From Jaapia argillacea MUCL 33604 (taxonomy: Eukaryota; Basidiomycota; Agaricomycetes; Jaapiales; Jaapiaceae): a stretch of DNA of 64,000 nt. Under the pieces are notes generated by a model, which ran no database searches, was not told where the DNA came from, and was given only the letters and a program-made list of their open reading frames with translations. Each line of letters opens with the position of its first letter. The stretch's first letter is position 1. The DNA lies in contig KL197726.1 of assembly GCA_000697665.1 (NCBI GenBank), positions 18,011-82,010 on the forward strand, written 5' to 3'. Below, piece by piece: positions 34,142 through 35,762 of this stretch. The translations under genes were made by a program, and so were the position numbers.

Positions 34142-34784
34142 GGAATTGGTTGGCGGGAAGCAAAAGACAAGCGGCAGTGGGATCGATGCTGTTTAGGAGA
34201 CCGTCGGATGGAAATCTAAGGCCAGGCAAAGGCGATGCCGCCTCACTGAGGCTGGCAGGCATGAAGGCCCACAAGTACCAGGTTTGGCAGATCGCCCATT
34301 CAAGCGTGGCGCTCAACCTCGTGGCACCAGGCTGGACGGGCGCTGAGACTAACCTACTCCAGAGTGAAGGTGGCGCTGTATGTTCACTCAGATCGTGCTT
34401 CAAACTATTGGATGCCAAATGGTATTCTCTCGAGAAGGACGTCAATTTATCTAGTAGCGATTGGTGAGCTGCTGAATCATTAGTCCCAGGCAGCGGAACG
34501 CACCGTCTGCCTTGTAGCAGTTCGAGTCTGCGAAGATAGAGATATGAGACTCGGAAGGATTGCAGCTTGAACTTATAATTATGGTTCCAGTGAGTTCGGC
34601 TGTGTCGCACATGTCCGGTGGCCGCCCGTCAGCGTATTTATTCGTGCAGTGTGTTCGTCCAACAGACCATACGTGAGCCCGAAAAAGTACCACATATTAC
34701 CGTCTTGCAATAATGTAGAGGATCCTCGGTACAACAAGTGGATGCTCCATGGAGGGGATAAGCACGCCAACACCTGAACTGTGA
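34142..34784. other. intergenic left of the foldback element
   Basis: Open frames on both strands here are not supported by any motif. The TGTGA at 34780-34784 is the candidate target-site duplication of the next element. Confidence 0.4.
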
Positions 34785-35565
34785 TGCTCAGTAAAAACGA
34801 AAGTCAAAGGACAGTCGAAAAAGAGGTCATATAGTCAATAAAAGTCAAGATTTTTTGATGGATTGATACCCGAACTGTTTCGTTGACTAAATAGTCAAAG
34901 AAAGTCGAAATACAGTCCGTCGGGCGGCAGCCTAAAAAGCCAAAAAGAAAACACCGAAAGAAACACCGAGCGGGAATCGAACCGAAAGCCTAAAGAAAGA
35001 AACACAAACAACAGAAACACAGCAAGCGAAACAGCGGCCATAACCACTAGGCAACAAAGCCATATAGATCTGATGCAATGGCGGCTAATTGAGGGTGTTA
35101 GCTTGCCACCCAGCTGCCACATCACCCCATCACCACCCCCCGAGCCTGACAAAACCCCCGCTGAGGAACAATGTTCCGACAAGTAAGAATCTCCAATACT
35201 ATGGATGGGATGTGAGCTGGGGGGTGGTGTGGCAGCCGGGCAGCGAGCTAATACCCTCAATTAGCCGCCATTGCGTCAGATCTATATGGCTTTGTTGCGT
35301 AGTGGTTATTACCGCTGTTTCTCTTGCTGTGTTTCTGTTATTTGTGTTTCTTTCTCTAGGCTTTCGGTTCGATTCCCGCTCGGTGTTTCTTTTGGTGTTT
35401 TTTTTTTTGGCTTTTTGGGCTGCCGCCCGACGGACTGTATTTCGACTTTCTTTGACTATTTAGTCAACGAAACCGTTCGGGTATCAATCCATCAAAAAAT
35501 CTTGACTTTTATTGACTATATGACCTCTTTTTCGACTGTCCTTTGACTTTCGTTTTTACTGAGCA
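34785..35565. mobile_element. 781-bp foldback element with arms of about 350 bp
   Basis: The two ends are inverted copies of each other for about 350 bp (34785 to about 35140, and about 35215 to 35565), beginning TGCTCAGTAAAAACG and ending CGTTTTTACTGAGCA. TGTGA stands directly outside both ends (34780-34784 and 35566-35570), a candidate 5-bp target duplication. The outer 130 bp of each arm repeat AGTCAA/AGTCGA motifs several times, as subterminal transposase sites often do. The centre is about 75 bp. There is no coding capacity, so it is non-autonomous. Each arm contains a tRNA-like Pol III promoter (see separate entry). Confidence 0.8.
35288..35410 (+). repeat. tRNA-like Pol III promoter unit in the right arm
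   Basis: An A-box-like TTGCGTAGTGGTTATTAC at about 35293 is followed about 70 nt later by a perfect B box GGTTCGATTCC (35366-35376). A long T run near 35397-35408 would end Pol III transcription. The left arm holds the same unit on the minus strand, where the A-box region reads TTGCCTAGTGGTTATGG, closer to a tRNA. It does not fold as a complete tRNA (the middle is expanded with TTTCTGTT-type repeats), so it is tRNA-derived rather than a tRNA gene. Confidence 0.6.
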
Positions 35566-35762
35566 TGTGATGGGCGTCTAAACAAGACGGCAAATGCCCA
35601 GGGCGCTTCCTTCACTTTACACTACTGCGTTACGGAGGGTCGACCCAGGCTTTGGTGCTCCCCGCAGTCATCTGCACACGGCGGGCAGTGGTAACCGACG
35701 CGTAGCGACGTGCAACAAATATATAAGTATTCTCCAGTTCTCCTTATCTACTCCTGAACCCC

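Follow-up and report, generated by a model that had tools for sequence, protein, structure and literature searches.

Promoters of Pol III small-RNA genes occur in SINEs and likewise in Cassandra, Helenus and Ajax, whose LTRs carry them; in both settings an RNA intermediate is the obvious reason. For its movement, a DNA transposon requires no transcript of its own. In extracts of its published description, Helenus comprises TRIM-type LTR retrotransposons of fungi, animals and plants in which both LTRs contain a Pol III promoter derived from a tRNA (PMC10886601); Ajax and Cassandra are likewise described in extracts as carrying 5S-derived Pol III promoters in their LTRs. Among DNA transposons, Galileo (P superfamily, Drosophila) is a foldback-like element for which extracts of the literature report long, internally repetitive TIRs, mostly 7-bp target duplications and the palindromic target motif GTANTAC (PMC3573991, PMC4168063), with transposase binding sites located in the TIRs (PMC3688188). 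The hAT7 elements are hAT transposons of rust fungi with 7-bp duplications (PMC12730594, excerpt). Among the titles and abstract beginnings retrieved from the open-access literature, none describes a DNA transposon whose inverted repeats contain Pol III promoters.

The foldback element analyzed here is located in a 64-kb window, that is, the whole stretch of DNA under study (C18:18011-82010). The family to which it belongs is best read as a variant of a known idea, the Pol III promoter in terminal repeats, here in a foldback DNA transposon; the nearest published idea found in our comparison is Helenus, together with Cassandra and Ajax. Like these elements, the window element is short and non-autonomous and has Pol III boxes in both terminal repeats (A and B boxes in Helenus), and it shares with Helenus the conservation around the boxes and a predicted RNA structure that does not support a tRNA function, as far as extracts of the Helenus description go (PMC10886601). 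The direct LTRs with 4-6-bp duplications of a TRIM such as Helenus were not found in the window family; its repeats are inverted, its duplications comprise 7 bp, and its ends are CTCAGT...ACTGAG with AGTC repeats, which amounts to the same idea in another transposon class. Galileo resembles the family in its long repetitive inverted arms and 7-bp duplications, a likeness of form, but its motif GTANTAC differs from the NNTNANN found here, and no Pol III promoter is described for it in the extracts (PMC3573991, PMC4168063). The likeness to hAT7, again taken from an excerpt, concerns the length of the duplication only; in a search for a hAT partner, the 0.8-1-kb 3' flanks of five of the 31 hAT loci of the present genome were devoid of CTCAGT...ACTGAG ends. 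With tRNA-derived SINEs the family has in common a short non-coding unit and an internal bipartite A/B-box Pol III promoter, recognized here by sequence only, whereas its arms terminate in inverted DNA-transposon ends common to the family, with duplications of fixed length, and a single possible solo arm (on C10) was found.

The long terminal inverted repeats of the window element span positions 34784-35566 and contain blocks of 168 nt at 98% and 198 nt at 90%. When the element was compared with itself by blastn, the arms were 94.8% alike over 343 nt as a single gapped alignment, which bears out the near-identical inverted arms of about 350 bp in the original prediction; the clusters of AGTCAA/AGTCGA which it placed near both element ends are visible as well. 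The borders had to be corrected. The predicted ends TGCTCAGT with a 5-bp TGTGA duplication are present as letters, but they lie two bases too wide on each side, because seven relatives have 7-bp duplications beside CTCAGT...ACTGAG; TGCTCAGT ends with TGTGA occurred in none of these seven relatives with a clear duplication. The window copy itself has no perfect adjacent 7-bp duplication: TGTGATG abuts the left end, and the right end is followed by CA and then by TGTGATG. Judged against its relatives, a 7-bp duplication with two extra bases would fit the family better than a duplication of 5 bp. The extra CA (35564-35565; duplication 34780-34786 and to 35572) gives this copy TG...CA ends with a perfect 5-bp duplication. 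The features of the element are listed in Table 1.

Table 1. Positions of the foldback element and its predicted Pol III-type modules within the 64-kb window.
Feature	Position	Strand	Basis
Whole foldback element, CTCAGT...ACTGAG, 777 bp	34787..35563	.	borders from 7 relatives with perfect 7-bp duplications
Left arm	34787..35128	-	element self-blastn, 94.8% over 343 nt
Right arm	35221..35563	+	element self-blastn
Central loop, non-palindromic, 92 nt	35129..35220	.	resembles the C1 loop (local score 35 with strict loops; 1/1000 shuffles reach it)
TGTGATG, left half of probable 7-bp target duplication	34780..34786	+	sequence
TGTGATG, right half of probable target duplication	35566..35572	+	sequence; CA at 35564-35565 separates it from the element
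AGTC-rich terminal region, left; candidate transposase-binding repeats	34787..34925	+	visible motif; inner limit approximate; putative binding
AGTC-rich terminal region, right; candidate transposase-binding repeats	35425..35563	-	as for left region; inner limit approximate; putative binding
A box, right arm, TTGCGTAGTGG	35295..35305	+	host-tRNA weight matrix, 11.1 bits
B box, right arm, GGTTCGATTCC	35366..35376	+	17.5 bits (median of host tRNA genes, 16.7)
T-run (11 T), putative Pol III terminator, right arm	35398..35408	+	sequence and composite scan
A box, left arm, TTGCCTAGTGG	35044..35054	-	host-tRNA weight matrix
B box, left arm, GGTTCGATTCC	34973..34983	-	host-tRNA weight matrix
T-run (5 T), putative Pol III terminator, left arm	34942..34946	-	composite scan

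Searches of the genome (43.7 Mb, 95 contigs) used end patterns as well as the window element, the arms of this element and three relatives as queries; the best candidates were scored, and all copy counts are lower bounds. At least seven complete foldbacks were found, namely the window copy (C18) and those on C35, C40, C50, C1, C2 and C3. The search for other copies, proposed as a check in the original prediction, was thereby answered with at least six further complete ones, with identical borders among the relatives. Incomplete relatives include at least a copy on C37 interrupted by an insertion, truncated ones on C39 and C8, and fragments on C33 and C31, the two fragments not being counted among the copies with arms. 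Same-type solo ends were present at least on C28, C43, C83, C29, C9 (two) and C47, and the element arms sort into five sequence groups. A genome scan with the end pattern yielded 23 matches as compared to 6 with a reversed control; inside the window, the same type of scan for further copies remained at chance level (19 found, 19.4 expected). End-like matches with two mismatches were examined at named sites, and C1:45080 and C12:89953, which had no similarity to the arms, were rejected as family ends.

A perfect 7-bp duplication beside CTCAGT...ACTGAG was found in seven of eight copies (C35, C40, C50, C1, C2, C3 and C37), the exception being the window copy. The duplications of the six complete copies are GATCACC, CATCATG, CCTCATG, GGTCACG, GATTACT and CCTCAGC, and the split C37 copy has CGTCACC on both flanks. 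Target duplications in other copies, also expected from the original prediction, were present, but with a length of 7 bp instead of 5 bp. The seven perfect duplications conform to NNTNANN (T at position 3, A at position 5), and TGTGATG of the window copy fits this pattern too. With inverted repeats, a duplication of fixed length and multiple copies with shared borders all observed, the element is best read as a non-autonomous DNA transposon of the foldback/MITE type.

Thirty-nine host tRNA genes served to train weight matrices for the A and B boxes, and a T-run was credited with a fixed, freely chosen bonus. Both arms of the window element reached 32.5 as an A+B+T composite and were the sole sites above 20 on both strands of the 64-kb window; the next-best composites scored 19.3 and 18.8, neither of them with a T-run. 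Read outward, each arm has the order A box, perfect B box, T-run; an A-box-like site, a perfect B box and a T-run in each arm had been predicted originally. A total of 18 arms from 10 loci was then compared with 200 dinucleotide shuffles each: 11 of the 18 beat all shuffles and 14 were reached by at most two of 200, with the reservation that arms of one element or group are related and the tests are not independent. The arms failing this test were C40L, C40R, C37R and C8R (reached by 10, 19, 22 and 56 of 200 shuffles, respectively), and in C37R and C8R the chosen B box was poor. The spacing from A to B box was 70-75 in 15 arms and 83 in C3R, as compared to 42-80 in the 39 host tRNA genes. An A box, B box and T-run arranged as in host tRNA genes were thus found in the window copy and most relatives.

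The sister arm of C37R, C37L, has an intact B box (CGTTCGATCCC), and the decayed boxes of C40 (CATTTGATTCC) and C50 (TGTTTGATTCC) show TTCGA/TTTGA differences of the CpG kind; hence, the deviations likely reflect decay of single copies. No outward A/B-box module was detected in the 430-970 bp examined at the solo ends on C28, C43, C83, one C9 site, C29 and C47, the last being a related end which lacks the module over 0.9 kb. Since these six related solo ends show no outward module, the promoter module is, on sequence comparison, not needed for the ends.

Right arms of eight elements showed 46-67% identity between groups and 85-94% within groups. Arms were aligned with MAFFT (17 of 18; C8R was left out), and conservation in five groups was determined by a sliding window along the 374 columns that had a coverage of 70% or more. 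Mean column conservation was 0.49, with peaks of 0.99 at the TIR end, 0.84 at the B box (unsurpassed outside the end), 0.80 at an AGTC stretch and, for the A-box region, 0.69 on the box and up to 0.78 just upstream and overlapping, a contrast that is possibly inflated, as MAFFT may bring conserved words into register more readily than other sequence. Between sequence groups, the terminal columns and one AGTC-containing stretch are thus conserved alongside the boxes, and, as far as sequences can tell, a Pol III-type promoter has been conserved in most inverted arms of a multi-copy family.

A tRNA was not recognized in the element. No conserved RNA pairs were predicted from 10 rows (the C50 row being short and without an A box), and six single predicted transcripts folded no better than shuffles. 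The Rfam tRNA family gave no match at E up to 10, and ARAGORN, with introns allowed, found no tRNA in 13 element sequences, although the same settings recovered all 39 control genes, which had been chosen as Rfam hits. The tRNA models thus recognized no cloverleaf. Comparison with 39 of at least 60 host tRNA genes gave weak leads to a parent only, namely Gln for C18 and C40 and Arg for C3; the A-half of C18 matched host tRNA-Gln at 23 of 32 positions, the best of 200 shuffles reaching 20. Because the boxes and the TIR end were kept while the arms diverged, and neither a fold nor a tRNA model matched, the sequence evidence points to a Pol III/TFIIIC promoter, and not a tRNA, as the feature under selection.

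The two arms inside one element are 92-96% alike in six complete copies; in C3 the value is 97% for the outer and 88% for the inner part, and in C37 it is 89.5%. Loops were compared as strict loops with 1000 shuffles, which gave chance counts weaker than those from 100-nt windows taking in arm bases, but still low. Similarity in one orientation was detected for C18/C1 (score 35, 1/1000 shuffles), C40/C2 (37, 2/1000), C50/C2 (41, 1/1000) and C3/C2 (35, 1/1000); the loops of C18/C40, C1/C2, C3/C18, C3/C40 and C3/C1 were not clearly related in this test. Modest as this similarity is, it suggests that the foldback form predates some of the group splits and that both arms have changed in concert since then, as would be expected of conversion or repair between them.

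We consider it probable (about 0.6) that the element is a non-autonomous cut-and-paste foldback DNA transposon with working outward Pol III promoters which aid the element. Points that speak against this reading are the four arms below the shuffle threshold, the module-free related ends, the C10 module that lacks a recognized end, the loops without clear relationship and the imperfect duplication of the window copy. Ends, duplications and promoter scores agree with the original view, in which both arms of a non-autonomous, DNA-transposon-like unit bear a Pol III-type promoter. A transposase provided in trans would act on the terminal AGTC-rich repeats; this half of the model, concerning movement, is well supported by the ends and duplications. 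TFIIIC and Pol III would bind each arm and produce a short RNA of, by position, about 110-130 nt, predicted to end at the T-run before the terminal region. The most likely benefit would be that occupancy by TFIIIC and Pol III keeps both ends in open, unsilenced chromatin accessible to the transposase; a benefit borne by the RNA appears less likely because no conserved fold was predicted. Conversion or repair between the arms would keep both alike. More tentatively, and at somewhat less than even odds, the family may be a class II counterpart of Cassandra and Helenus, in which a Pol III promoter in both TIRs is selected and works in a life cycle without an RNA intermediate, through occupancy that keeps the ends accessible to the transposase. 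Conserved Pol III promoters in both inverted repeats of a DNA transposon call for another reason, for example open chromatin, insulation or help to the transposase. Intact boxes, decayed boxes and module-free related ends occur side by side and provide a natural test inside one genome.

Alternatively, a tRNA-derived SINE was captured by a MITE and carried passively, so that the boxes are relics without a role. Several observations agree with this explanation: boxes have decayed in several copies (C40, C50), with CpG-type changes among the differences, related ends exist without the module, and the C10 module exists without a recognized end. However, the boxes are conserved at 0.69-0.84 against 0.49 overall in five groups, the intact box of C37L makes the decay in the C37 group look copy-specific, and no solo copy of the window-type arm was found among the candidates scored. 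We therefore regard this explanation as unlikely; a captured SINE, as proposed originally, is possible as a distant origin, whereas the conservation of the boxes counts against a passive relic.

Two SINEs may instead have been joined head to head and later mobilized as a unit, perhaps on several occasions. The Pol III head of either arm resembles that of a SINE, and the genome was searched for single arms occurring as SINEs, a check included in the original prediction. Among the best candidates scored, arms of the window type belonged to foldbacks or, once, to a fragment, and never occurred as a solo copy. The sole candidate for a solo arm is of the C3 type and adjoins an N gap: the C3 element matches C10:55930-56112 at 68%, and this arm has a strong A box, a B box and a T-run without an AGTC-rich end downstream, its other side being N. 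Judged from its sequence, it may be either a truncated copy or a solo SINE-like unit. This arm keeps the idea of joined SINEs alive, but the idea is weakened by the restriction of the window-type arm to foldbacks and one fragment and by the same-orientation loop likeness of C18/C1, C40/C2 and C3/C2, which suggests that the joined form predates the splits; furthermore, the arms reach shared transposon ends with AGTC repeats. Altogether, a junction of two SINEs is very improbable. In detail, the C10 arm (C10:55900-56140; L115 about 405-640) comprises A box TGGTGTAGTTG, B box GGTTCGATTCT and a T-run with a score of 31.6; its inner side is N, and about 480 bp on its outer side contain neither CTCAGT nor an AGTC-rich end. 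A second, reversed piece of 28 nt is located about 0.5 kb further on.

No better founded than a junction of SINEs, and to be doubted strongly, is a locus that makes a hairpin (microRNA-like) RNA and retains the palindrome for this purpose. The arms are long and near-perfect, and Neurospora milRNAs are reported in extracts to depend on Pol III (PMC3547838); the same source states, again in extracts, that milR-1 has no predicted A or B box according to its authors. Matches to Rfam miRNA families occurred in the inner arms, but all were below the gathering score and inside palindromic arms, a long palindrome alone can yield such matches, and they were rejected. Long hairpins from opposed Pol III promoters had also been suggested in the original prediction. 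The promoters diverge and would give nearly the same transcript, each with its T-run inside its own arm, and neither transcript would span the loop. Because the promoters face outward and terminate inside the arm, a Pol III hairpin is unlikely, and hairpin RNA from the window element would require read-through from outside; moreover, conservation between groups peaks at the promoter boxes and ends. A divergent pair of tRNA genes or pseudogenes within an ordinary inverted repeat, to which the A/B-box scores of most arms in the range of host tRNA genes and the resemblance of the C18 A-half to tRNA-Gln might point, has a very low probability in view of the ARAGORN and Rfam results and of copies on 7 other contigs with their own perfect target duplications.

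For the preferred reading of a foldback DNA transposon with outward Pol III promoters, a transposase was also looked for among 10 ORFs near the solo ends on C9 and C29. None was found, and no autonomous partner with the family's ends turned up among the loci examined; these ORFs included a flavin oxidoreductase, a HAD-like hydrolase and a below-cut-off Ty3-like capsid. A second end was looked for at the C9 (L060 945, L059 7270) and C29 (L061 9233) solo ends, which read CTCAGTAAAAATG or CTCAGCAAAAACG with AGTC repeats, and was not found. The two C9 ends occupy a matching position in a duplicated region that is about 81% alike. Among the 10 window ORFs compared with Pfam, one matched TPR repeats, seven had no match and two had a below-cut-off DivIC match.

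Additional observations concern single copies. An insertion of about 11 kb interrupts the left arm of the C37 foldback (C37:38857-50676; L056 858-909 to L057 2903); this insertion has ends CAAGGGGCATCC... and an 8-bp duplication ACTAAAAG and is partly N, and six of its ORFs and one flank ORF had no Pfam match. Closely similar solo ends CTCAGTAAAAACGATAAGTC lie on C28 (L066 1-451) and C43 (L067 71-500), where 430-450 bp of arm can be read; the C28 end runs into the contig start and the C43 end into an N gap with the interior N, and both could belong to a longer relative. On C83 (L068 about 410-565), a related end contains a good B box (CGTTCGATTCC) that points inward instead of outward; GGAAGTGCAAG...CTTGCACTTCC flank it in the manner of an acceptor stem, but no tRNA was called there. 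On C40, another large inverted repeat with 956-bp arms at 98% (L048 507-1462 and 2411-3366) is located around an N run about 400 bp from the foldback.
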